From Demequina sp. NBRC 110054 (GTDB taxonomy: Bacteria > Actinomycetota > Actinomycetes > Actinomycetales > Demequinaceae): DNA of 64,000 bases. Location: NCBI RefSeq assembly GCF_002090115.1, contig NZ_BBRK01000004.1, forward strand, positions 1,736,001 through 1,800,000. The letters are read 5' to 3'. The notes under the pieces are model-generated. The model saw only the letters and a list, made by a program, of their open reading frames with translations. It ran no database searches and was not told the DNA's origin. Shown one piece after another: positions 12,564-25,560 of the stretch. The stretch's first letter is position 1, and every line of letters starts with the position of its first letter. A program made the translations under genes and the position numbers.

Positions 12564-12579
12564 TCCACCATGTGGTGGA
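12564..12579. promoter_or_regulatory. TetR operator, sulfatase copy
   Basis: TCCACC-ATGT-GGTGGA, a perfect 6-bp inverted repeat. The identical half-sites with the same 4-bp spacer and the same 21-bp distance to an ATG occur at 16431-16446 before the GH3 gene. The proposed ligand is the TetR protein encoded at 15723-16406. Confidence 0.7.
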
Positions 12580-12587
12580 GATTGCGT

Positions 12588-12593
12588 TATCAT
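12588..12593 (+). promoter_or_regulatory. -10 box of the sulfatase transcript
   Basis: TATCAT, 7 nt before an ATG. The matching GH3 promoter has TATCGT at the same distance from its ATG. The operator lies directly upstream, so bound repressor would cover the -35 region. Confidence 0.5.
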
Positions 12594-12600
12594 TCTCGGT

Positions 12601-12633
12601 ATGGCCAATGGTGACCGCACCATGCCCGCGTGA
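12601..12633 (+). CDS. Possible 10-codon leader peptide before the sulfatase
   Basis: An ATG at the predicted transcription start opens a 10-residue frame (MANGDRTMPA) ending in TGA. The preceding bases match those ahead of the GH3 start, where the equivalent ATG is the true gene start. It could be a leaderless mini-ORF that affects sulfatase expression or a remnant of a duplicated promoter and start. There is no direct proof of translation. Confidence 0.3.
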   Translation: MANGDRTMPA

Positions 12634-12747
12634 GTGAGCCGAGCTCTCCGACGATGGTCCCGATGACGTTGTCGCGCGCGAGCGAGGCCGCACGCACGAG
12701 CACCGACGGCCACGGCCGCCGGGCCATGACTGAGGAGAAGGACGACG

Positions 12748-14334
12748 ATGTCATCTGAGCTGCCCCCGGAGAGCCCGCTGGGCGACGCCCCCGAGGCGGA
12801 CGCGTCGAAGCAGGCCGCGCCCGACGCGCAGCCCGCCGTCGAGCACGCCCCCGTGGCCACCAAGACCAGGAAGAAGAGCGGTCGCGGCAGGCGGATCCTC
12901 AAGGGCACCGGCCTCGTGATGGCGATCCCCGGGGTCGCCGCGCTCACGGGCGTCGGCTACGTCCTCACTCAGATGGTCACGAGCAAGCCCGACAACTCGC
13001 CCGAGCACGAGGACTCGAAGGACGACTACCTGGACAGCATCGCCGGCGCCGCCGCCGAGGGCTCGCCCAACGTGCTGCTCGTGTACTACGACGACCTCGG
13101 CTACGAGGACCTGGGCTTCATGGGCGACACCCCGATCCAGACGCCGAACCTCGACGCGCTCGCCGAGGACGGCGTCGTGATGACGAACTACCACTCGCCG
13201 TCGGCCGTCTGCACGCCCTCGCGCGCCGCGATGCTGACGGGCCGCCTCGCGCCGCGCGCCGGCGTCCCCGAGGTGCTGTTCCCCAGCTCCGGGGCCATGA
13301 ACCTCATGAACCTCATGTCGGACGCGCATGGTCTCACGCAGGCCGAGATCACGATCCCCGACGTGCTCCAGGCGTCGGGCTACGACACGGGCATGATCGG
13401 CAAGTGGCACATCGGCGACAAGGAGGGCTCGCTGCCGAACGACTTCGGCTTCGACTCCTTCCTGGGCTCGCGCTACTCGAACGACATGACGCCGTTCCAG
13501 ATCTATCAGGACGACGAGGTGCTCCTCGAGACCGTCGACCAGACCGAGCTCGACGCCCTCTACACCGACGCCGCGGTCGACTTCATCGCCGAGGCGGGGG
13601 AGTCCGAGGACCCGTTCTTCCTGTACTTCGCCCACAACTTCCCGCACGAGCCGCTGTATGCGGCCGCGGAGAATGAGGGGCGCTCCGACGCGGGCCTGTA
13701 CGGCGACGTGGTCGAGGGGCTGGACGACGGCATCGGCCGCATCGTCGACGAGCTCGAGGCTACCGACCAGCTCGACAACACGATCATCATCGTCACGAGC
13801 GACAACGGCCCGTGGTTCCAGGGCGACGCGGGCGACCATCGCGGCCGCAAGGGCATGGTCTACGAGGGCGGCCAGCTCGTGCCGTTCGTCGTCCACTGGC
13901 CCGACGGCGTCGAGGGTGGTCAGACGATCGACACGATGACCATGGGCACGGACCTCATGCCGACGCTCCTGGATTGGATCGACCTCCCGCTGCCGACCGA
14001 CCGAGCGCTGGACGGCTCGAGCATGGCCCCGCTCATCGCGGGCGAGAGCGACGTCGCGAGCGAGTATTACTACTACTACGCCGGCAGCGAGCTGATGGCG
14101 GTGAGCGACGGCCAGTACAAGTACCACAAGCGCACGCCGTACCTCTACACGATGAGCGGCGACGTGTTCACCATCGGTGCGCACGTGCAGGGTCCCTGGC
14201 TGTTCGACCTCGAGGCCGACCCGAGCGAGTCCTACGACATCCACGACGCGCAGCCCGAGATCGCCGCGGAGCTCAAGGCCGAGCTCGAGCGCCGTGAGGC
14301 CGAGGACCAGGAGAACCTGCGCGGCTGGAACTGA
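12748..14334 (+). CDS. Membrane-anchored Cys-type sulfatase
   Basis: 528 residues. A basic cytoplasmic head (1-50) and one membrane segment (about 52-75) make an uncleaved signal anchor; the sulfatase domain is outside. NVLLVYYDDLGYEDLGFMG carries the metal-binding aspartates, and CTPSRAAMLTGR at residue 155 is the C-x-P-x-R signature whose Cys becomes formylglycine. GKWHIG and TSDNGPW complete the site. It hydrolyses sulfate esters; the substrate is unknown. The ATG follows GAGGAGAAGG. A 12-bp terminator separates it from the maturase gene just downstream. Confidence 0.92.
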   Translation: MSSELPPESPLGDAPEADASKQAAPDAQPAVEHAPVATKTRKKSGRGRRILKGTGLVMAIPGVAALTGVGYVLTQMVTSKPDNSPEHEDSKDDYLDSIAGAAAEGSPNVLLVYYDDLGYEDLGFMGDTPIQTPNLDALAEDGVVMTNYHSPSAVCTPSRAAMLTGRLAPRAGVPEVLFPSSGAMNLMNLMSDAHGLTQAEITIPDVLQASGYDTGMIGKWHIGDKEGSLPNDFGFDSFLGSRYSNDMTPFQIYQDDEVLLETVDQTELDALYTDAAVDFIAEAGESEDPFFLYFAHNFPHEPLYAAAENEGRSDAGLYGDVVEGLDDGIGRIVDELEATDQLDNTIIIVTSDNGPWFQGDAGDHRGRKGMVYEGGQLVPFVVHWPDGVEGGQTIDTMTMGTDLMPTLLDWIDLPLPTDRALDGSSMAPLIAGESDVASEYYYYYAGSELMAVSDGQYKYHKRTPYLYTMSGDVFTIGAHVQGPWLFDLEADPSESYDIHDAQPEIAAELKAELERREAEDQENLRGWN

Positions 14335-14347
14335 GCCGACGCGCACT

Positions 14348-14381
14348 GGGACGGTCGCCGCAGGACTGGGGCGACCGTCCC
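14348..14381 (+). terminator. Terminator after the sulfatase
   Basis: A perfect 12-bp stem (GGGACGGTCGCC / GGCGACCGTCCC) with a 10-nt loop. Confidence 0.7.
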
Positions 14382-14416
14382 GGTGTTGCTCGGCCCGGTC
14401 AATCTAAGATATGAGA

Positions 14417-15697
14417 ATGACTTCCTCGTCGCCCGAGCCTGTGCGGCGGCCCGCCGTCGTCGCCGTGCCGGGCATCGACCCTGCCGGCCCCGGCGGTCGA
14501 CGCAACCTGCCCTTCACCGTGCTCGCCAAGCCCACGGGCGCCGCGTGCAACCTCGACTGCACGTACTGCTTCTTCCTCTCCAAGGAGCTGCTGTACGACC
14601 ACGATGGCCAGCGCATGTCCGAGCAGGGGCTCGAGTCGTACCTGTCCAACCTGCTGCGTTCGCAGCCCGACGGCGAGGTCGAGATCGCGTGGCAGGGCGG
14701 CGAGCCGACGATGCGCGGGCTGCCGTTCTTCCGCCGCGCGGTCGCGCTCGCGGAGCAGCTGCGCCGCCCCAAGCAGACGGTGCGGCACACGCTTCAGACC
14801 AACGGCACGCTCCTGGACGATGCGTGGGGCGAGTTCCTCGCCGAGCGCGGCTTCCTCATCGGGCTGAGCGTCGACGGTCCGGCTCACCTGCACGACACCT
14901 TCAGGGTCAACAAGGCGGGGCGCGCGACGCATGCGCAGGTGATGCGCGGGCACGAGGTGCTGAAGCGCCATGGCGTCGAGTTCAACATCCTGTGCACGGT
15001 GCACGCCGCCAATCAGGATCACGGGCTCGAGGTCTACCGGTACTTCCGCGACGAGCTCGGCGCGCGCCACATGCAGTTCATCCCGATCGTCGAGCGCGTC
15101 ACGCGCGAGCAGCTGCCGATCGCGGAGCAGGGCTGGAAGGACGGCAGCGGGACGCGGATCCTGTACCGCCAGCAGGGGGACGCGGTGACGAGCCGCAGCG
15201 TCGACCCCGCCGCGTGGGGTGAATTCCTGATGAGCATCTTCGACGAGTGGGCCGCGCGCGACGTCGGCAGCGTCTTCGTCCAGCACTTCGATGTCATGCT
15301 CGGCAACGCGCTCGGGCAGTACTCGATGTGCGTCCACTCGCCCGAGTGCGGCGCTGCGCTCGCGGTGGAGCACACCGGCGACGTCTACTCGTGCGACCAC
15401 TACGTCGAGCCCGGCTACCTGCTGGGAAACGTCGCGGACAAGCCGCTCCAGACGATGCTGCGCTCGCCCGAGCAGAAGCGCTTCGGAGCATCGAAGCGGA
15501 CGAGCCTGCCTCGTCAATGCGTCGAGTGCCCCGTGCGCTGGGCGTGCCATGGCGGCTGCCCCAAGGATCGCTTCGACCGCACCGCGGACGGGGAGCCCGG
15601 ACTCAACCACCTGTGCGCGGGCTACTACCGGGCCTTCTCGCACGCCGAGCCGACGATCCGCCGGATGGCGGAGATCGTCGCGCCCGCGCTGCGCTGA
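14417..15697 (+). CDS. Anaerobic sulfatase-maturating enzyme (radical SAM)
   Basis: About 426 residues. The radical-SAM motif CNLDCTYCFF binds the catalytic 4Fe-4S cluster. WQGGEPTMRG, HTLQTNGTLL, GLSVDGP and a C-terminal SPASM-like cysteine set (including CPVRWACHGGCPKDRF) match anSME, which oxidises the sulfatase Cys or Ser to formylglycine without oxygen. The start chosen is the ATG 6 nt after a TAAGAT -10 (14405-14410), leaderless; an ATG at 14411 is the alternative. The Cys-type sulfatase next door is the obvious client. Confidence 0.92.
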   Translation: MTSSSPEPVRRPAVVAVPGIDPAGPGGRRNLPFTVLAKPTGAACNLDCTYCFFLSKELLYDHDGQRMSEQGLESYLSNLLRSQPDGEVEIAWQGGEPTMRGLPFFRRAVALAEQLRRPKQTVRHTLQTNGTLLDDAWGEFLAERGFLIGLSVDGPAHLHDTFRVNKAGRATHAQVMRGHEVLKRHGVEFNILCTVHAANQDHGLEVYRYFRDELGARHMQFIPIVERVTREQLPIAEQGWKDGSGTRILYRQQGDAVTSRSVDPAAWGEFLMSIFDEWAARDVGSVFVQHFDVMLGNALGQYSMCVHSPECGAALAVEHTGDVYSCDHYVEPGYLLGNVADKPLQTMLRSPEQKRFGASKRTSLPRQCVECPVRWACHGGCPKDRFDRTADGEPGLNHLCAGYYRAFSHAEPTIRRMAEIVAPALR

Positions 15698-15722
15698 GGC
15701 AGCGGGAAGCGCTGTCGAGCTC

Positions 15723-16406
15723 TCAGCCCTCGGGCGACTCCTCGGCGGTGCGCGGGGCGAGCTCGAATGCCTCCGCGAGGATCTGGCCGAAGATCGTGGG
15801 CAGGTCGATCTCTCCCGGGTGAAGGGCGTTGTACGTCTCGAGGCCCTCCTGCGCTGCGATCACCGCGACCGCTCGCTGCTCCGGGGTGAGGGGGTCGGAG
15901 GTGCCGCCGTGGTCCTCTCGCCCGCGCGCGATCGTGTCGGCGAGGATGCCTCGCAAGAGCCCGTGCCTGTGCTGCAGGACCTCTCGCGCGGGGTGCGAGG
16001 GCGAACCGGCCTCGGCGGTGAGGATCGACAGGAGCTGGACGAGTCCTGGTGTCGCGAGGCTGTGCCGCGCATTCGCGACGAGCGCGTCCGCGATGGTCTG
16101 GACGGGAAGCGTCGACATCTCCTCGATCGCCGCCTCGACGGCCTCGGCGCCGCCGGGCAGACCCCGCGTGTCTCGCCACTCGATGACCGCGAGGAGCAGG
16201 GCGGTCTTGTTGCCGAAATGGTGCAGCAGCGTCGAGTGGTCGATGCCCGCCTCGCGCGCGATCGAGCGCAGCGACGCTCCGTAGAAGCCCTTCTCCGCGA
16301 ACGCGGCGGCGGCGCGCTCGACGATCGCCTGCTTCGTCACCCTGCCGGTCGCGTAGCCGTCCTGCCGTTGGTGACGCTGCTGCTGCGTCGAGTCCCGTGT
16401 GCTCAC
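15723..16406 (-). CDS. TetR-family regulator of the sulfatase/GH3 locus
   Basis: 227 residues from a GTG (MSTRDSTQQQ); a GTG at 16424 is possible. The N-terminal helix-turn-helix reads AAAAFAEKGFYGASLRSIAREAGIDHSTLLHHFGNK, then a ligand-binding domain with no recognisable ligand. It is convergent with the maturase and divergent from the GH3 gene, with the inverted repeat at 16431-16446 only 24 bp before its start. Autoregulation and repression of both GH3 and sulfatase are inferred from the shared operator. Confidence 0.88.
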   Translation of the reverse strand: MSTRDSTQQQRHQRQDGYATGRVTKQAIVERAAAAFAEKGFYGASLRSIAREAGIDHSTLLHHFGNKTALLLAVIEWRDTRGLPGGAEAVEAAIEEMSTLPVQTIADALVANARHSLATPGLVQLLSILTAEAGSPSHPAREVLQHRHGLLRGILADTIARGREDHGGTSDPLTPEQRAVAVIAAQEGLETYNALHPGEIDLPTIFGQILAEAFELAPRTAEESPEG

Positions 16407-16430
16407 GAGAGCATCGTGCCACACCCAATG

Positions 16431-16446
16431 TCCACCGACTGGTGGA
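16431..16446. promoter_or_regulatory. TetR operator, GH3 copy
   Basis: TCCACC-GACT-GGTGGA lies between the divergent tetR and GH3 genes. The same half-sites and spacing occur at 12564-12579. Confidence 0.7.
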
Positions 16447-16454
16447 AGTTGCTG

Positions 16455-16460
16455 TATCGT
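16455..16460 (+). promoter_or_regulatory. -10 box of a leaderless GH3 transcript
   Basis: TATCGT, 7 nt before the GH3 ATG, with no ribosome-binding site between them. Confidence 0.5.
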
Positions 16461-16467
16461 TATCGGT

Positions 16468-18915
16468 ATGGACAACGTCGCCCGCCGCGCTTCTGTGCGC
16501 GCCGATCTCTCCCTCGCGGAGAAGGCCTCGCTCATGTCGGGAGCGAACTTCTGGAACACGAAGTCAGTCGACCGTGTCGACGTGCCGGCGATCATGCTGA
16601 CCGACGGTCCCCACGGCTTGCGCAAGCAGGGCGGCGCCGCCGACCACCTCGGACTCAACGCGAGCATCCCGGCCACGTGCTTCCCGCCGGCGGCCACTCT
16701 CGCCAACAGCTGGGACGTCCCGCTGCTCGAGCGCGTCGGCGACGCGCTCGGCGCCGAGGCCGCCGCGGAGGACGTGAGCGTCCTGCTCGGGCCCGGCCTC
16801 AACATCAAGCGCAACCCGCTCGGCGGGCGCAGCTTCGAGTACTTCTCCGAGGACCCGCTGCTGTCGGGCATGCTCGCCGGTGCTCTCGCACGCGGGATCC
16901 AGTCCCGCGGGGTCGCGGCCTGCCTCAAGCACTTCGCGGTCAACAGCCAGGAGACCCACCGCATGAGCGTCGACGAGATCGTCGACGAGCGCGCTCTCCA
17001 CGAGCTGTACCTCGAGGGCTTCCGCATCGCGCTCGACCAGAGCTGCGCCTGGACCGTGATGACCTCGTACAACAAGGTCAACGGCATCTACGCGAACGAG
17101 AACGCGACGCTGGTGGAGGACACGCTGCGCGGACGCTTCGGCTTCGACGGGCTCGTCGTCACCGACTGGGGAGGCAGCAACGACCGTGTCGCGGGCCTCG
17201 TCGCGGGCAACGCCCTTGAGATGCCCTCGACCGAGGGCGTGACCGACGCGGAGATCGTCGCCGCGGTCGAGGCCGGCGAGCTCGACGAGTCCGTGCTCGA
17301 CGCGCGTGTCGACGAGGTGCTGACCCTGATCGAGCGCACGGCGTCGGCGCGTGAGGGCTCGGCGCCCGCAGACCTCGACGCGCACCACGCGCTCGCGGTC
17401 GAGGCGGCGCGCAAGTCGATCGTGATGCTGCGCAACGCCCCTGACGTCGAGGGTGTGCGGCTCCTGCCCCTCGACGATCCGGCGAAGGCCGGCCGTGTCG
17501 CGGTCGTCGGCGACTTCGCCGCGACCCCGCGCTACCAGGGCGCCGGCAGCTCGCTCGTGAACCCCACCAGGGTCGACAGCGCGCTCGACGCGCTGCGCGC
17601 CACCGACCTCGACATCATCGGCTACGAGCCCGGCTTCAGCCGCATGGATGGCCAGTCGAAGCGGCGCCGGCGCCGCGCGGTCGCCCTCGCGCAGCGTGCC
17701 GACGTGACGCTGCTGTTCCTCGGCCTCGACGAGTCCGCCGAGGCCGAGGCCGTCGACCGTGCGCACATGCGCCTCGCCGAGAACCAGATCGCGCTCGTGC
17801 GCGAGCTCACGCGTCACGGCGCACGCCTCGTGGTCGTGCTCGCCGGGGGCGCTCCGGTCGAGCTCCCGTTCGCGAGCTCTGTCGACGCGATCGTCCACGG
17901 CTACCTCGGCGGCCAGGGCGGCGGCACCGCGATCGCCGACGTGCTCACCGGCGCGGTGAACCCGTCCGGACGCCTCGCCGAGACCTACCCGATGACCTAT
18001 GCCGACGTCGCGTCGTCGGCGACCTTCGGGCGCACCCAGGCCACCTCCGAGCATCGCGAGAGCATCTATCTCGGCTACCGGCACGCCGACAAGCTCGGCG
18101 CCGAGGTCCGCTACCCGTTCGGCCACGGCCTGTCGTACACGACGTTCGCCTACTCGGAGCTCATCGCCGGCCCCCGCTCGGCCCGTGTCACCGTCACCAA
18201 TGCCGGACACCGCGCGGGCACCGAGACTGTCCAGGTCTACACCGAGGCGCCCGACGCGGCGGCCGGTCAGTTCCGCGCGCCGCGCGAGCTTGCGGGCTTC
18301 GCGAAGGTGACGCTCGAGCCGGGTGAGTCTCGGACCGTCGAGGTCGCCTACCGCGAGCACGCGTTCGACGTGTTCGACGCCGAGGCGGGGGACTGGGCGA
18401 CCGTGGGCGGCGCCTACCGCGTGCTCGCGGGTGCGTCGTCCCGCGACCTCCGGGTGTCCGCCGACCTCACTGTCGACGGCGGTCCGATGCCCGACGCGGA
18501 CACCGCATCGTCCCTCCCGCACTACGTGAGCGGCCAGGTGCACGCCGTCCCCGACGAGGAGTACGTGGCCCTGCTGGGCCGCACCCTGCCTCCGAGCGGC
18601 TGGGACGCGACCAAGGAGCTCACCAGGGACGACATCATCGCCCAGTGCCAGGGACGCGGCGGGTTCGCCGGCTTCCTGTACTGGCTGATCGACACCACCG
18701 GCGACGTGCTGATGCTGCTGCGCAAGCCTCTCGCTGCGAACAACACGCACTTCGCGCTCGACCTGCCGTTCAGGTCCGTCGCGCGACTGAGCGGAGGGGC
18801 AGCAGACGATCACATGGTCGACGGCCTCCTGCTCATGGTCAACGGGCAGTTCTGGAAGGGACTCCACCGCACCGGGACCGCCTGGCGCGCGCTGCGACGC
18901 AGCAAGCGCGCCTGA
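16468..18915 (+). CDS. GH3 family beta-glycosidase (conventional domain order, cytoplasmic)
   Basis: 815 residues with no signal peptide. The catalytic barrel comes first (to about 290): DGPHGLRKQ, GRSFEYFSEDP, CLKHFAVNSQE, and the nucleophile Asp233 in LVVTDWGG. The GH3_C domain follows (about 310-560, GAVNPSGRLAETYP), then an FnIII-like domain after YPFGHGLSYTTF, and about 100 extra C-terminal residues. It should cleave oligosaccharides that have entered the cell; beta-glucosidase and beta-xylosidase activities cannot be told apart from sequence. The start is the leaderless ATG. The permuted GH3 gene follows after 118 bp, probably in one operon. Confidence 0.9.
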   Translation: MDNVARRASVRADLSLAEKASLMSGANFWNTKSVDRVDVPAIMLTDGPHGLRKQGGAADHLGLNASIPATCFPPAATLANSWDVPLLERVGDALGAEAAAEDVSVLLGPGLNIKRNPLGGRSFEYFSEDPLLSGMLAGALARGIQSRGVAACLKHFAVNSQETHRMSVDEIVDERALHELYLEGFRIALDQSCAWTVMTSYNKVNGIYANENATLVEDTLRGRFGFDGLVVTDWGGSNDRVAGLVAGNALEMPSTEGVTDAEIVAAVEAGELDESVLDARVDEVLTLIERTASAREGSAPADLDAHHALAVEAARKSIVMLRNAPDVEGVRLLPLDDPAKAGRVAVVGDFAATPRYQGAGSSLVNPTRVDSALDALRATDLDIIGYEPGFSRMDGQSKRRRRRAVALAQRADVTLLFLGLDESAEAEAVDRAHMRLAENQIALVRELTRHGARLVVVLAGGAPVELPFASSVDAIVHGYLGGQGGGTAIADVLTGAVNPSGRLAETYPMTYADVASSATFGRTQATSEHRESIYLGYRHADKLGAEVRYPFGHGLSYTTFAYSELIAGPRSARVTVTNAGHRAGTETVQVYTEAPDAAAGQFRAPRELAGFAKVTLEPGESRTVEVAYREHAFDVFDAEAGDWATVGGAYRVLAGASSRDLRVSADLTVDGGPMPDADTASSLPHYVSGQVHAVPDEEYVALLGRTLPPSGWDATKELTRDDIIAQCQGRGGFAGFLYWLIDTTGDVLMLLRKPLAANNTHFALDLPFRSVARLSGGAADDHMVDGLLLMVNGQFWKGLHRTGTAWRALRRSKRA

Positions 18916-19033
18916 CCCACCCACCTACAGCCGCGCGCCGAGCCGATCTCCGCGCGCCCGACCTCACCACCGACCACCGCGCGCTGCACCGATGCACGCG
19001 CGCCCGACCCCCCCCACGAAAGCCGAGAGGAAC

Positions 19034-21769
19034 ATGGCTACCCGTAGAGAGATCAAGCAGGACGCGGTCGCACGCGTCCGCGCGGACCGCGCCGCGAGGC
19101 GCGAGCGCGCCGCCGAGCTGAAGGCGATGACGCCCGAGGACCGCAAGGCCGCCAAGGCCGCCGACAAGCAGGCGGCCGCCGCGGCGAAGGCCGAGCGCAA
19201 GTCCGCGCGCGCCGAGATGCCCAAGGACGAGCGTCGCGAGGACAAGCGCCGCGCGAAGGTCTACCGCAAGGTGTCCCGCCGCCCGTTCCGCTTCGCGGGC
19301 TGGGGCGTCGGCGCCGTCGCCGCGTTCGGGATCGTCCTGCTCGCCGCGCCCTACGCGGGCGCGTTCGGCCGCATCGCCGGCCTCGAGTTCAACGACGACA
19401 GCCCCGAGGCCGTCGCGGCCCGTGAGGCCGCGCTCGAGCTCACCGAGGACATCGCTGACGAGGGCATGGTCCTCATGGAGAACCAGGACGACGTCCTTCC
19501 GCTCGCCGACGACGCGAAGGTGAACGTGTTCTCGTTCGCGTCCTTCAACCTGCTGCTCGGCGGCGGCGGCTCCGGCGGCACAGCCGTCGAGGGCGCCCCG
19601 ACGCTCTACGAGGCGCTCGCCGACCAGGGCATCGCGTACAACGAGGACCTCTACGCCACGATGGAGGATGCGGGCGCCGAGCACACCGAGGGCTCGAGCA
19701 ACTTCCTCGTGCAGATCGTCGAGATGGCCATGGGCGCCGCCGGCACCGCAGAGCCCGCGCCCGACTACCTCACCGATGAGGTCATGGCGCAGGCCGCCGA
19801 CTACTCCGACACCGCGATCGTCGTGATCGGCGCCGCGGGCGGCGAGGGCTCCGACCTGTCCCAGGAGGACCTCCAGCTCAGCGATGAGCAGATCGCGCTG
19901 CTGGACGTCGTCACCGCCAGCCAGGACGACGTCATCCTCGTGGTCAACGCCGGCAACCAGATGGAGCTCGGCTTCGTCGAGGACTACCCGCAGATCAAGT
20001 CCGTCGTCTGGATGGGCACGCCCGGCCAGCAGGGCGCGGTGTCGCTTGCGAAGATCATGTCCGGCGAGGTCAACCCGTCGGGTCGCCTCACCGACACGTA
20101 CGCCTACGACGTCACCTCGGCGCCCGGCGCCGAGAACTTCGGCAGCCACACGTACACCAACGCGGACCGCGCGTTCCTCGAGTACGAGGAGGGCATCTAC
20201 GTCGGCTACCGCTACTACGAGACCCGGTACCTGGACGACGAGGCCGGCTACGAGGCCGCGGTGCAGTTCCCGTTCGGTCACGGCCTCAGCTACACCGACT
20301 TCGTGTGGGACGTGGCCGAGCCCGTCGTCACCGAGGAGGCGGTGACGGTCGACGTCACCGTGACGAATGAGGGCGACGTCGCCGGCAAGGACGTCGTCCA
20401 GGCCTACTTCTCCGCCCCGTACACCGCGGGCGGCATCGAGAAGTCCGCGATCGAGCTCGCCGGCTACGCCAAGACGGCCGAGCTCGAGCCCGGCGCCTCC
20501 GAGACCGTCACGATCTCGTGGGACGTGCGCGACATGGCGTCGTGGGACACCGAGGCGGGCAACTACGTGCTCGACGCAGGCCTGTACGAGCTGACCGTCG
20601 CCACCGACGTCCACACCCCGGTCGCGTCGTTCGACCACGAGATCGCCGACGCGGTCGTCTACACGACCGACGCCGACACCGGCTATGAGTACGCGAGCCG
20701 CTTCGACTTCGCCGAGGGCGACGTCACCTACCTGTCGCGCGCCGACTGGGAGGGCACCTACCCGACCGCGCCCGACGGCACGGAGACCGCGTCCGACGAG
20801 GTCCTCGCGCTCATGAACCCGGAGATCGTGGCCGCCGAGGGCGAGGCCCCGACGTACGGTGCGGACAACGGCCTCACGCTGGCCGACATGGTCGGCCTCG
20901 ACATGGACGACCCGCAGTGGGACGCGTTCCTCGACCAGCTCACGCTCGAGGAGACGATCGAGCTGTTCTCCTACGGCGCCTACAAGACCGCCGAGGTCGA
21001 GCGTCTCGGGATCCCGTCGATCACGATGCTCGACAGCCCCGCGGGTCTGAACTCGCTGTTCGCCGACCTCGAGGCGGCCGCGTATCCGTCCGAGATCATG
21101 ATCGCGTCCACGTGGAACGACGAGCTGGCCTACGCGGTCGGCGAGTCGGTCGGCATCGAGGCCAACATCTACGGCGTCGAGGTCTGGTACGCCCCCGGCA
21201 TGAACCTGCACCGCACCGCGATGGGCGGGCGTGACTTCGAGTACTTCTCGGAGGACCCGCTGATCTCGGGCACGATGGCCGCGGCCATGGTGAACGGCGC
21301 GCAGGACCAGGGCATCGTCACGACGATCAAGCACTTCGTCCTGAACGACCAGGAGGTCAACGCGCGCTCCGGCATCAACGTGTTCACCTCCGAGCAGGCG
21401 CTGCGCGAGCTGTACCTCGCGCCGTTCGAGATCGCTGTGAAGGACTCGGCGCCCACCGGTGCGATGAGCTCGTTCATCAACATCGGTGGCAAGTGGGCCG
21501 GCGGCTCGTCCGAGCTGCTGCAGGACGTGCTGCGCGGCGAGTGGGGCTTCGAGGGCTTCGTCACGACCGACGCGGTGCTCGGCTCCTGGATGGACCCCGC
21601 CCAGGCGGCGCTGCACGGCAACGACGTGATGCTCGCGGTGCTCGCGCCCGGGACCGTCTCCGCCACGGAGAAGGCCGTCGAGGCCGACCCGGTCGGCATC
21701 GGCAACGGTCTGCGTGACCGCGTCCACCAGCTGCTTCACACGGTGACCCTGACGGGCGCCGTCGAGTAG
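19034..21769 (+). CDS. GH3 family glycosidase with swapped domain order, membrane-anchored
   Basis: 911 residues. The first ~85 are a Lys/Arg/Ala-rich cytoplasmic stretch, followed by a membrane segment (about 86-110). The GH3_C domain then comes before the barrel: DEGMVLMENQDDVLPL (about 140), GEVNPSGRL (about 345), FPFGHGLSYTDF (about 411), an FnIII-like domain (about 435-520), and only then the catalytic barrel (about 610-890) with GGRDFEYFSEDP, TIKHFVLNDQE and a nucleophile candidate in FVTTDAVLG (about 846). The start is the ATG after GAGAGGAAC. It probably acts outside the cell, complementing the cytoplasmic GH3 upstream. Confidence 0.9.
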   Translation: MATRREIKQDAVARVRADRAARRERAAELKAMTPEDRKAAKAADKQAAAAAKAERKSARAEMPKDERREDKRRAKVYRKVSRRPFRFAGWGVGAVAAFGIVLLAAPYAGAFGRIAGLEFNDDSPEAVAAREAALELTEDIADEGMVLMENQDDVLPLADDAKVNVFSFASFNLLLGGGGSGGTAVEGAPTLYEALADQGIAYNEDLYATMEDAGAEHTEGSSNFLVQIVEMAMGAAGTAEPAPDYLTDEVMAQAADYSDTAIVVIGAAGGEGSDLSQEDLQLSDEQIALLDVVTASQDDVILVVNAGNQMELGFVEDYPQIKSVVWMGTPGQQGAVSLAKIMSGEVNPSGRLTDTYAYDVTSAPGAENFGSHTYTNADRAFLEYEEGIYVGYRYYETRYLDDEAGYEAAVQFPFGHGLSYTDFVWDVAEPVVTEEAVTVDVTVTNEGDVAGKDVVQAYFSAPYTAGGIEKSAIELAGYAKTAELEPGASETVTISWDVRDMASWDTEAGNYVLDAGLYELTVATDVHTPVASFDHEIADAVVYTTDADTGYEYASRFDFAEGDVTYLSRADWEGTYPTAPDGTETASDEVLALMNPEIVAAEGEAPTYGADNGLTLADMVGLDMDDPQWDAFLDQLTLEETIELFSYGAYKTAEVERLGIPSITMLDSPAGLNSLFADLEAAAYPSEIMIASTWNDELAYAVGESVGIEANIYGVEVWYAPGMNLHRTAMGGRDFEYFSEDPLISGTMAAAMVNGAQDQGIVTTIKHFVLNDQEVNARSGINVFTSEQALRELYLAPFEIAVKDSAPTGAMSSFINIGGKWAGGSSELLQDVLRGEWGFEGFVTTDAVLGSWMDPAQAALHGNDVMLAVLAPGTVSATEKAVEADPVGIGNGLRDRVHQLLHTVTLTGAVE

Positions 21770-22113: not shown

Positions 22114-24828
22114 TCAGGCCTTGGTGTCGGCCTCGCCCTCGGTGACCGCAGCATCGTCCGTCGACTCGGACTCGGCGACCGCCGCATTGTCCGCATTGTC
22201 CGCGTCCTCCGCGTGGGGGACCGGGTGGCTGCGCTCGAGCGCGGCGCCCTCGACATCGACGTTCGGCAGGATCCGGTCGAGCCACTTGGGCATCCACCAG
22301 GCCTTCTCGCCCGCCAGGTGCATGAGCGCGGGGATGATGAGCATGCGGACCACGAAGGCGTCCGCGAGCACGCCGACCGCGAGGCCGAAGCCCATCGGGC
22401 GGATCAGGTTGATGTGGCTGAAGATGAAGCCTCCGAACACCGACATCATGATGATCGCGGCCGCGGTGACCACCGCGCGTCCGTGACGTCGACCGGCGAC
22501 GACCGCGCGGCGTGCGTCCATGCCGTGCACGTAGGACTCGCGCATGCCCGAGCCGAGGAACAGCTGGTAGTCCATCGCGAGGCCGAACAGCACACCCGTG
22601 AGGATGATCGGCAGGAAGTTCAGCACCGGGCCCGGATCGTGGACGCCGAAGATGCCTCCGAGCCAGCCCCACTGGTACACCGCGACCACGGCGCCGAAGG
22701 ACGCGAACAGCGACAGCACGAAGCCGAACGTCGCCATAAGCGGCACCAGCAGCGAGCGGAACACCACGATCAGGATGATGAGCGACAGCCCGACCACGAC
22801 CACCAGGTAGATCGGCAGCGCGTTCGCAAGCAGCTCGGAGATGTCGATGTTGCCGCTGGCCTCGCCCGCGACGCCGAGCACGGTGCCGTCCTCGAGCGGG
22901 GTCAGGTCGCGCAGCTCGTGGACCAGGTCCTCGGTGGACTGGCTCGACGGTCCCTCGGCCGGGATGACCTGGAAGGCGATGAACGAGTTGTCGTCGTTGA
23001 CGCCCACGGGCGTGGCCGCGGTGACGTCCTCGACCGCCATGAGGGTCTCCGCGATCGAGACCTCGGCCGCCAGCAGGTCGTCGTCGGAGACGGCCTCGGG
23101 CAGCTCCGCCGTCACGAGCAGGGTGCCGTTGAGGCCCTCGCCGAACTTCGCGTCGGTGATCGTGTAGGCCTGGTACTGCGTCGAGTCGGTCGGCTCCTGG
23201 GTGCCGTCGGGCAGGCCGAGCCGCATCGACAGCGCGGGGATGGCGATGACGAGCAGGAGGGCGGACGCGACGACCGCCGACAGCACGGCCTTCCACGTCG
23301 TCATCGGCTCGACGGGAGCCTCGTGGTGCTCGGGGGCGCCCACCGTCGCGCGGGCCTTCTTGTTGAGCGCGCGCATCCCGATGAGGCCGAGCAGAGCGGG
23401 CGTGAGGGTGACCGCGACGGCCACGGCGACGAGCACCGAGAAGGCGCCGACCGAACCCATGATGCCCAGGAACGGGATGCCGGTGACGTTGAGCGCGAGG
23501 AGCGCGATCAGCACGGTCGTGCCCGCGAACACCACCGCGTTGCCGGAGGTGCCGTTGGCGAGGCCGACGGACTCGTGGACCTCCATGCCGCGGCGGAGCT
23601 GGCTGCGGTGGCGGTTGACGATGAACAGCGAGTAGTCGATGCCGACCGCAAGGCCCAGCATGACGCCGAGGATCGGCGTGACGGAGGACATCTCGACGAC
23701 GTCCGAGAACGCCATCGCCGTCGCGACGCCCACGCCGACTCCGATCACCGAGGTGACGATCGGGAGGAGCGCGGGGATGAGGGTCCTCATCATGACGATG
23801 AGGACGACCAGCGCGAGCAGCACGCCGACGATCTCGCCGACGCCGATGATGCCCTCGACGCTCGTGGCGATGTCGGCGGAGAAGTACGAGTTCAGGCCCT
23901 CGGGGGTCGCCTCGGTGATCGCGTCCATGACCGAGTCCTTGTCGGCCTGCTCGAGCGTGAACGCGGTCTCGCTGAACTGGACGATGCCGAGCGCGGTCGT
24001 GCCGTCGTCGGAGACCGTGCGGATCTCCGCGGCCGCGGCGGCGAGGCGCTTGCCGAGCTCGAGCTGCTCCGCTGCCGCGTCGAGCTGGGCCTGGCCCTCG
24101 TCGAGCTGGGCCTGGCCGTCGTCGAGCTGCGCCTGACCCGCGTCGAGCTGGGCCTGGCCCTCCTCGAGCTGGGTGCGCGCCGCGTCGATCTGCTGCTGGC
24201 CGGCGTCGATCTGCGCCTGCTGCTCCGCGAAGGTCGCCTCGGCGTACGCGTACGTGCCGTCCTCCTTCGCGGCCTCGATGGCGGCGTCGAGCTGCTCCTG
24301 TCCTGCGTCGAGCTCCGACTGCTGCGACTCGAGCTCGGCGAGGCCGGCGTCGATCTGCGCCTGCTGCGCGTCGATCTCGTCCTGGCTCGCGTCGATCTCC
24401 GCCTGGTTCGCGTCGATCTCCGCCTGGTTGGCCTCGATCTCGGCGGCGCCGTCCTCGAGCTGCTGGAGCTGAGCCTCGAGCTCGGCCTGGGTCGCGAACG
24501 GGTCGACGACCGCCTCGACGGACGCGGTGTCGAGCGCGGTCTCGAGGGCTGCGGCGATCTGTGCCTGCTGCTCCTCGGTGATCTCCGAGCCGTCCGCGGT
24601 CTGGAAGACGACGCGGGCGCTGAGCCCATCGAGCCCGTCGATCTCCTCGGACATGCGGTCCGTGACCTTCTCGGTCTCGGTGCCCGGGATGCTGAACGAC
24701 TGGGTGAGCGTGCCGCCGAACGCGAGGAACGCGCCTCCGGCGACGAGCAGCGTGAGGATCCACGCGGTGATCACCACGAATGGGTGCCTCGAGGACGAGT
24801 GTCCGAGGCGATAGAGCAGATTGGCCAC
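22114..24828 (-). CDS. MMPL/RND-family exporter with a heptad-repeat extracellular insert
   Basis: 904 residues from a GTG (VANLLYRLGHSSSRHPFVV) after GGAAAGG. Two RND halves are visible, each with one membrane segment, an outside loop and a five-helix bundle (GVATAMAFSDV, GIDYSLFIVNRHR; GLAMDYQLFLGSGMRESYVHG). The first loop (about 90-330) contains roughly 15 heptads such as QAEIDAN and QAQLDAG, a predicted coiled coil. The C-terminal tail is acidic. MMPL proteins export lipids, siderophores or drugs using the proton gradient. The divergent TetR gene and shared palindrome suggest induction by a substrate. Confidence 0.9.
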   Translation of the reverse strand: MANLLYRLGHSSSRHPFVVITAWILTLLVAGGAFLAFGGTLTQSFSIPGTETEKVTDRMSEEIDGLDGLSARVVFQTADGSEITEEQQAQIAAALETALDTASVEAVVDPFATQAELEAQLQQLEDGAAEIEANQAEIDANQAEIDASQDEIDAQQAQIDAGLAELESQQSELDAGQEQLDAAIEAAKEDGTYAYAEATFAEQQAQIDAGQQQIDAARTQLEEGQAQLDAGQAQLDDGQAQLDEGQAQLDAAAEQLELGKRLAAAAAEIRTVSDDGTTALGIVQFSETAFTLEQADKDSVMDAITEATPEGLNSYFSADIATSVEGIIGVGEIVGVLLALVVLIVMMRTLIPALLPIVTSVIGVGVGVATAMAFSDVVEMSSVTPILGVMLGLAVGIDYSLFIVNRHRSQLRRGMEVHESVGLANGTSGNAVVFAGTTVLIALLALNVTGIPFLGIMGSVGAFSVLVAVAVAVTLTPALLGLIGMRALNKKARATVGAPEHHEAPVEPMTTWKAVLSAVVASALLLVIAIPALSMRLGLPDGTQEPTDSTQYQAYTITDAKFGEGLNGTLLVTAELPEAVSDDDLLAAEVSIAETLMAVEDVTAATPVGVNDDNSFIAFQVIPAEGPSSQSTEDLVHELRDLTPLEDGTVLGVAGEASGNIDISELLANALPIYLVVVVGLSLIILIVVFRSLLVPLMATFGFVLSLFASFGAVVAVYQWGWLGGIFGVHDPGPVLNFLPIILTGVLFGLAMDYQLFLGSGMRESYVHGMDARRAVVAGRRHGRAVVTAAAIIMMSVFGGFIFSHINLIRPMGFGLAVGVLADAFVVRMLIIPALMHLAGEKAWWMPKWLDRILPNVDVEGAALERSHPVPHAEDADNADNAAVAESESTDDAAVTEGEADTKA

Positions 24829-24898
24829 GTCAGAGCCTTTCCAAGGTATGGGGGTGGGGAGATGGCGACGATGCCTGCACTCACTGTAACCCGATTCT

Positions 24899-24930
24899 GA
24901 GAGATACCCAACAAATGTTGGATATCTCTC
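24899..24930. promoter_or_regulatory. TetR operator between the MMPL and tetR genes
   Basis: A 32-bp near-perfect palindrome centred at 24914/24915. The left half GAGAGATACCCAACAA matches the complement of the right half at 14 of 16 positions. It lies 33 bp from the tetR ATG and 70 bp from the MMPL start. Confidence 0.75.
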
Positions 24931-24963
24931 GCTTCCGGCTGAGAAACCTGGCACCATGCGTCT

Positions 24964-25560
24964 ATGGATGCCCGTGTGCTGAGGACCCGCGCGCGCCTTC
25001 AGGAGGCGTTGCTCGCACTCGCGCGCGAGAAGCCCGCGTCCGAGGTCAGCGTCAGCGACGTGGCCGAGCGGGCAGGCGTCAACCGCAGCACCTTCTATCA
25101 GCACTACACGGATACCGACACGCTGCTCGCGGATGCCCTGGACGCTGCGGCGACCAAGGCCGGAGCCCAGCTCGCGCACGTCGAGCTCGATCCCGCGGTG
25201 CCACCCGCGCTGCTCATTGACTTCCTCTCGCACATCGCCGACAACCCCGACATCTATCGCCAGGCCCTCACCGGCACGGCGAGCGGGGCCGTGATCGTGA
25301 GACTGCGAGCCAGGGTCGCCGACATGATCCGCCAGGACGCGCCCGAGCGCGTGATGGTCCCGGATCCTGAGCATGACGGGGTTCCCCTCGAGGTGCTGTC
25401 CGCGGGTGTCGCCGGCACGGTGCTCGGCGTGATCACCGCATGGCTCGACCGCGATCCGCTCGAGTCGCCCGAGGTCGCCGCCGGTTGGGCCTGGGCCGCG
25501 CTGTTCGGACCCGGGCGGGCGCTTCCCGACCGCAACGCGGGCGAAACACCCGCGGGCTAG
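24964..25560 (+). CDS. TetR-family regulator of the MMPL exporter
   Basis: 198 residues. The helix-turn-helix is at 20-55 (VSVSDVAERAGVNRSTFYQHYTDTDTLL); the rest is a ligand-binding domain resembling TetR_C domains of exporter regulators. It is divergent from the MMPL gene with a 32-bp palindrome between, the standard layout of a self-regulating repressor. The ligand is unknown. A terminator is not obvious before the phosphorylase gene 75 bp downstream. Confidence 0.88.
   Translation: MDARVLRTRARLQEALLALAREKPASEVSVSDVAERAGVNRSTFYQHYTDTDTLLADALDAAATKAGAQLAHVELDPAVPPALLIDFLSHIADNPDIYRQALTGTASGAVIVRLRARVADMIRQDAPERVMVPDPEHDGVPLEVLSAGVAGTVLGVITAWLDRDPLESPEVAAGWAWAALFGPGRALPDRNAGETPAG

Follow-up and report, generated by a model that had tools for sequence, protein, structure and literature searches.

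Do the sulfatase, maturase and glycosidase genes that surround a single TetR gene in Demequina sp. NBRC 110054 form one regulon, and on what would such a regulon act? The genes lie in a block at positions 12564-21769 of a 64-kb window (the whole stretch of DNA analysed here) from this 3.35-Mb genome. A preliminary description of the window had named a Cys-type sulfatase, a sulfatase maturase (anSME), a TetR regulator and two GH3 enzymes, and domain profile matches find all of them. We call the two GH3 genes GH3a and, for the circularly permuted one, GH3perm. It is likely, in our judgment, that one TetR protein represses its own gene, the GH3a-GH3perm pair and the sulfatase gene through the palindrome TCCACC-N4-GGTGGA, that a ligand would release it, and that the enzymes would act on the same compound. 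The elements behind this reading are the following.

12564-12579, + strand: predicted TetR operator 1, before the sulfatase gene, TCCACCATGTGGTGGA (exact match; 7 other genomes have a site with 0-1 mismatch before their sulfatase)
12588-12593, + strand: -10 element TATCAT, 8 nt after operator 1 (from the sequence and the promoter geometry described below)
12748-14334, + strand: Cys-type S1 sulfatase, 528 amino acids, membrane anchor at approximately residues 55-73 (PF00884, 4.3e-57; CTPSR; hydropathy)
15723-16406, - strand: TetR repressor, probable GTG start (PF00440; its 28 orthologs, at least 51% identical, all come with GH3a and the operator)
16431-16446, + strand: predicted TetR operator 2, between tetR and GH3a, TCCACCGACTGGTGGA (exact match)
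16455-16460, + strand: -10 element TATCGT of GH3a, 7 nt before the ATG (sequence and promoter geometry)
16468-18915, + strand: GH3a, 815 amino acids, first 140 residues free of a hydrophobic anchor (PF00933, PF01915, PF14310; hydropathy)
18992-21769, + strand: GH3perm, circularly permuted, anchor at approximately residues 101-125; the start may be the ATG at 19034 (domain order; hydropathy)

As the preliminary description stated, the palindrome occurs exactly twice in the window, where 0.01 occurrences are expected; none of 100 dinucleotide shuffles of the window contains two. The palindrome is 16 bp long at these two sites, and the majority sequence of 50 site rows extends to 18 bp (TTCCACC/GGTGGAA). 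Each site had also been placed 21 bp before an ATG. The spacing is as described (8 nt, TATC(A/G)T, 7 nt, then ATG at 12601 or 16468), but the ATG at 12601 is not the start of the sulfatase, which begins at 12748 behind its own ribosome-binding site, GAGGAGAAGG. In the whole genome there are five exact sites against two for the reversed control pattern, and 32 sites with at most one mismatch against 33. The three exact sites outside the locus lie inside open reading frames (ORFs), by eye rpoB, a glycosyltransferase and a hypothetical gene. Such counts alone prove nothing, so position and conservation carry the argument. With intragenic and intergenic calls taken from a simple codon-usage gene caller, 28 of the 32 sites fall inside genes. 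The remaining four are intergenic: the locus has two, and two others (L191, L198) are at gene ends. We considered the latter as further members of the regulon and rejected them for that position. No transporter stands under the operator among the 32 sites, which supports, for this genome, a regulon without one.

Is the operator conserved with its regulator? A search of related genomes, proposed in the preliminary description as a check, was run on two samples. The family sample holds 47 Demequinaceae genomes, the window's own included, and 44 of them belong to one genus. The TetR orthologs, defined by at least 51% identity to the TetR of the window, mark 29 loci: the window, 14 other Demequinaceae and 14 from other genera (Paraoerskovia 1, Isoptericola 1, Microbacterium 3, Oerskovia 5, Agromyces 4). 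A site with 0-1 mismatch precedes GH3a at all 29, across six genera, and GH3a and GH3perm are both present at every one (GH3 matches below 40% identity were left uncounted). Some layouts are exceptional: G021 carries the sulfatase-anSME pair between tetR and GH3a, and GH3perm of G040 runs off its contig. At 13 of the 29 loci (L045-L055, L094, L096) there are two operator copies, 38-40 bp apart, which bracket the GH3a -10 element. We compared 15 further loci, whose TetR is at most 46% identical or is matched over a short stretch only. In none of them is there a GH3a match of at least 40% identity, or an operator in the stretch from tetR to a GH3a. An exact site is found some 2 kb off at L118; at five more loci (L117, L121, L122 and L123 among them) sites with at most one mismatch are kilobases off or absent.

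The position of the site relative to the promoter is equally regular. The motif TANNNT follows the operator at a distance of 5-9 nt in 29/29 GH3a promoters (counted from the first copy if the locus has two) and in 7/8 sulfatase promoters, or 36/37 together. In any of 15 nearby windows of 5 nt, which reach 40-45 nt to each side, it is found in 0-2 of the 37; at random, mostly coding positions, a cruder control, it is found in 215 of 84000. From the fixed short distance to the -10 element, the operator would cover the -35/spacer region, where a repressor would be expected to bind. The GH3a transcript is probably leaderless, judging from the 7 nt between its -10 element and the ATG. The TetR protein has the TetR_N helix-turn-helix at its N-terminus (PF00440, 1e-13) and an all-helical structure model (mean pLDDT 83). 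Its recognition helix region, DHSTL(L/I)HHFGNKTALL(L or V), is conserved in 15/15 aligned Demequinaceae sequences. That TCCACC-N4-GGTGGA is the TetR operator is strongly supported by these comparisons.

How firmly is the sulfatase tied to this regulator? The sulfatase is the sole PF00884 match in the genome. An anSME scores above the model cut-off in 12 of the 47 family genomes, each with a sulfatase just upstream. The pair is present in 10 of the 15 family genomes with TetR vs 2 of the 32 without (Fisher 3e-5, relatedness ignored). Eight of the ten have the operator before the sulfatase: it is exact in the window, G014, G008 and G020, and has one mismatch (GGTTGA) in G021, G040, G015 and G010. 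In six of these eight genomes (draft assemblies of G040, G015, G010, G014, G008 and G020) the sulfatase and tetR are on different contigs, and the 20 kb around tetR contain no sulfatase in G015, G010, G014, G008 and G020. In the other two genomes of the ten, G025 and G019, the order is operator, GH3a, GH3perm, esterase, sulfatase and anSME, all on one strand. The pair thus takes four arrangements relative to tetR and GH3a, and the sulfatase stands under the operator or in an operator-led gene string in 10/10 genomes that have both it and TetR, vs 0/2 without TetR; no operator precedes the sulfatase in these two (G006, G042). Exact sites outside the locus point the same way. Of 13 in the 14 other TetR-bearing genomes, nine are inside predicted genes (one, L131, a weak gene call), one is partly inside (G040) and three are intergenic; all three intergenic sites precede the sulfatase. 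The sulfatase frame of G040, a metagenome bin, has one internal stop (L168).

The maturase is separated from the sulfatase by a structured gap.

14335-14394, + strand: strong hairpin in the sulfatase-anSME gap, terminator-like without a T run (-51.7 kcal/mol, z -6.3)
14405-14410, + strand: TAAGAT, a possible -10 element of a separate anSME promoter (from the sequence; G021 has TAAAAT at the same place)
14417-15697, + strand: anSME; another in-frame ATG lies at 14411 (TIGR03942, 443 bits against a cut-off of 349; the only one in the genome)

The anSME has a radical SAM domain (PF04055) and a SPASM domain (PF13186). No FGE-type maturase is matched in the genome, and with one sulfatase and one anSME the pair is self-contained. 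We folded the gap in ten of the twelve genomes with the pair, all but G006, where the two genes adjoin, and G042. A strong hairpin is found in all ten (the window; L044, L051, L055, L168, L170, L172-L175). Its sequence differs between genomes, and the four tested against shuffles have z-values of -3.7 to -6.3. TANNNT occurs shortly before the anSME start in seven of the ten, by eye. The anSME may therefore have its own promoter, and the hairpin possibly sets the ratio of sulfatase to maturase. In Paraoerskovia marina (L176), next to another TetR (31%), an anSME-like gene is broken into pieces that occupy more than one frame; the 3.6 kb there contain no sulfatase match.

Besides the uninformative site counts, several points weigh against a regulon of this extent. 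The genomes compared are related, and counts across them are not independent. The G040 sulfatase site has no -10 element at the usual place, and four of the eight sulfatase operators have the half-site GGTTGA. The sulfatase is missing in 5 of the 15 TetR-bearing family genomes, and an anSME above cut-off is found in none of the 14 genomes of other genera. Given the hairpin and the -10-like sequence, the anSME may not respond together with the sulfatase. A fold search with the TetR model returned generic TetR matches and no structural clue to a ligand. The absence of the sulfatase in 5/15 and of the maturase in 14/14 outside genomes makes their link to the core accessory; on the genomes compared, the core module is tetR-GH3a-GH3perm. 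The claim that one TetR and one operator serve both the sulfatase and GH3 promoters is nevertheless strongly supported by conservation; the coupling of the anSME comes out weaker.

The mechanism that we propose builds on the operator, the promoter geometry and the co-inheritance observed above. TetR would bind the operator over the -35/spacer region, 6-9 nt upstream of the -10 element, and block RNA polymerase. A small ligand, probably a glycoside or its product, would release it. The sulfatase and GH3perm, both anchored and with their domains probably outside, would remove sulfate and a terminal sugar, and the cytoplasmic GH3a would cleave inside, acting on the same compound. Are the active-site signatures present? 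In the sulfatase, C155-T-P-S-R159, D115, D116, K219, H221, H300, D352 and N353 are invariant in 11/11 aligned sequences (the window and ten relatives); these are the C-x-P-x-R signature and the residues counted as active-site ligands of type I (S1) formylglycine sulfatases. Its structure model was poor (pLDDT 46) and was discarded. The nucleophile Asp motif (T/S)DWGG is present in 15/15 GH3a sequences, and TTDA is seen in GH3perm, in the sequence only. The solved structures nearest to GH3a are bacterial GH3 beta-glucosidases; its nearest family model is that of exo-alpha-(1->6)-L-arabinopyranosidase (NF041610), on which it scores 681 bits, far below the cut-off of 1300. GH3perm runs GH3_C, Fn3, then GH3_N. 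In Demequina globuliformis (G007, L047), GH3perm is split into two pieces in different frames.

What, then, is the substrate? The earlier idea that the block desulfates and cuts a sulfated oligosaccharide is only an inference, and the sulfatase is accessory. The sulfatase adjoins tetR-GH3 in only 4 of the 15 Demequinaceae loci, and none of the 14 outside genomes has an anSME above cut-off, so that the inducer of the core need not be sulfated. A tentative alternative, which we would not put first, is that the substrate is an amphipathic esterified glycoside (sulfated, acylated or phosphorylated, e.g., a saponin or an aryl glycoside) and not an algal polysaccharide. The genome has one sulfatase, and no other promoter stands under the operator. 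A single sulfatase and no transporter under the same control speak against a complete system for algal polysaccharide and leave room for a small esterified glycoside. Regulators of the TetR family usually respond to small molecules, and the nearest sequence match of this one among solved structures is UidR, a glucuronide sensor. In relatives, the GH3 pair is followed by an anchored PHB-depolymerase-like esterase gene (7 of 16 fetched loci of 20 kb each, one of 7 kb) or by a PAP2 phosphatase gene (5 loci), with both in one; of two esterases tested, one exceeds the Pfam cut-off of Esterase_PHB. However, GH3 enzymes act on oligosaccharides too, and the esterase and PAP2 genes may be unrelated neighbours.

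A broader form of this alternative concerns both the ligand and the history of the regulon. Here TetR would be a sensor of a sulfated or esterified small glycoside, such as a marine saponin or an aryl glycoside, the regulon would be distributed, and the sulfatase would have moved repeatedly in Demequina genomes, keeping or re-acquiring the operator, in the window by copying of the GH3 promoter. We regard this combination as rather unlikely. The proposed copying concerns the sequence after site 1, which contains a further element.

12601-12633, + strand: 10-codon ORF MANGDRTMPA-stop, probably a relic of a GH3a N-terminus (from the sequence and its match to the G043 GH3a promoter)

Over the 45 nt that follow operator 1, 30 positions agree with the GH3a promoter and first codons of G043 and 29 with the GH3a promoter of the window itself. 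The same stretch matches other sulfatase promoters at 12-19 positions, except that of G021 (27), and 20000 mononucleotide shuffles against G043 give a mean of 11.2 and a maximum of 24. The peptide MANGDRT resembles GH3a N-termini; that of G043 begins MANVDRR. Site 1 probably arose in an ancestor of the clade, when the GH3a promoter and the first codons behind it were copied to a place before the sulfatase gene. We rejected a functional leader peptide as first choice because G021 has ATT in place of the ATG and because no such ORF is found at that place, by eye, in other sulfatase promoters; in the window itself a leader peptide with a function is conceivable. The sulfatase of the window groups with those of G014 and G020 (support 0.98), and its anSME (0.98) and GH3a (1.00) group with those of G021; the cluster may therefore be a mosaic.

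Could the copied site be without effect? TetR would then control only tetR and the GH3 pair, and the sulfatase site would be a fortuitous or decaying promoter copy before an effectively independent gene. This is suggested by the resemblance of site 1 to a GH3a promoter, by the 10-codon ORF of no clear use, by the ATT and one altered half-site in G021, and by the five family genomes that have TetR and lack the pair. However, a site with 0-1 mismatch is kept before six sulfatases on contigs apart from tetR, two genomes have the sulfatase behind the GH3 genes, and the two TetR-less genomes have no operator; we therefore hold the sulfatase's independence to be improbable. Last, although the palindrome is a perfect 6-bp inverted repeat with a 4-nt loop and its second copy at 13/29 GH3a loci, downstream of the -10 element, would be transcribed, it is scarcely credible that it acts as a transcribed hairpin (mRNA structure or terminator) and not as an operator, because the first copy lies upstream of the -10 element in 7/8 sulfatase and 29/29 GH3a promoters, and so outside the transcript, and because the arms hardly vary while the N4 does.

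We return to a single TetR acting on both promoters, and add several observations on its more distant homologs. In the same genome (L037, C4, about position 957000), a GH3 gene (36%) has another TetR gene (36%) nearby, without the operator. In Demequina sediminicola (L116), a TetR of 46% identity abuts a GH3perm fragment (residues 784-925), with no GH3a match and no operator there; perhaps this is a decayed module. An order-wide search gave five weak TetR homologs, and three of them (L222, L225, L226; 35-37% identical) are beside GH3 genes without this operator. Their recognition helix differs (SHPGL(L/I)HHFP(R/T)KE). An ACC-N4-GGT core with other outer bases is present in the gap of L226 and less clearly in that of L225, perhaps a sister operator. 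Downstream of the locus, at 22114-25560 of the window, there are an MMPL-family transporter gene and another TetR gene; G004 (L057) has a TetR gene and an MMPL gene at the same chromosomal place, without GH3 genes. An operator before MMPL genes was rejected: the L057 locus, whose TetR is 47% identical and lies beside MMPL, has no site with 0-1 mismatch.

How does this predicted regulon compare with known systems? UidR/GusR is the glucuronide-responsive TetR repressor of the E. coli gus operon and controls a GH2 enzyme and a transporter. UidR is the best profile match of our TetR among solved structures (6ayi, 4.8e-13, profile positions 12-156 of 203), and both are TetR repressors next to a glycosidase; Salmonella GusR, however, ranks only 23 by fold. 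Gut sulfatase-anSME clusters, such as ats of Bifidobacterium breve and those of Bacteroides, place a Cys-type sulfatase beside a radical SAM maturase. The pairing is the same here, whereas the regulators known there are not of the TetR family. Judging from the matched stretches, the circularly permuted GH3 beta-glucosidases among solved structures (5wug, 5k6l) have the GH3_C half first, as GH3perm does, and GH3perm differs from them by its added N-terminal membrane anchor.

A literature search gave, among the matches listed (titles and abstract starts), none that deals with a sulfatase of Demequina or with a sulfatase-GH3 regulon under TetR control. What we predict is a compact regulon: a single regulator with a 16-bp operator, one sulfatase with its maturase, and two glycosidases. 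The operator, found in several arrangements, would tie the sulfatase to a sugar-related TetR, and its substrate could be found through whatever lifts the repression. At site 1, a promoter was probably copied and a short leaderless ORF left behind. If the prediction is true, TetR control, which has been predicted for beta-glucoside and galactoside genes (PMC4746261), extends to a sulfatase.

The nearest described systems appear to be the BgrT regulators of bifidobacteria, likened here by gene pairing and palindromic site and by description only. The parts of the published account considered here describe BgrT as TetR regulators of beta-glucoside and beta-galactoside genes in Bifidobacterium, inferred by comparative genomics, with predicted palindromic sites of 18-22 nt and local regulons, and as present in other Actinobacteria (PMC4746261). 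In those parts no sulfatase or maturase appears, whereas here the sulfatase-anSME pair is an accessory of the core, and BgrT genes are often near transporter genes, whereas none stands under our operator. The regulon predicted here has two promoters. The central pairing is shared: BgrT has tetR beside a beta-glucosidase gene such as bglX, and here tetR is found with the pair of predicted GH3 enzymes at 29/29 loci.

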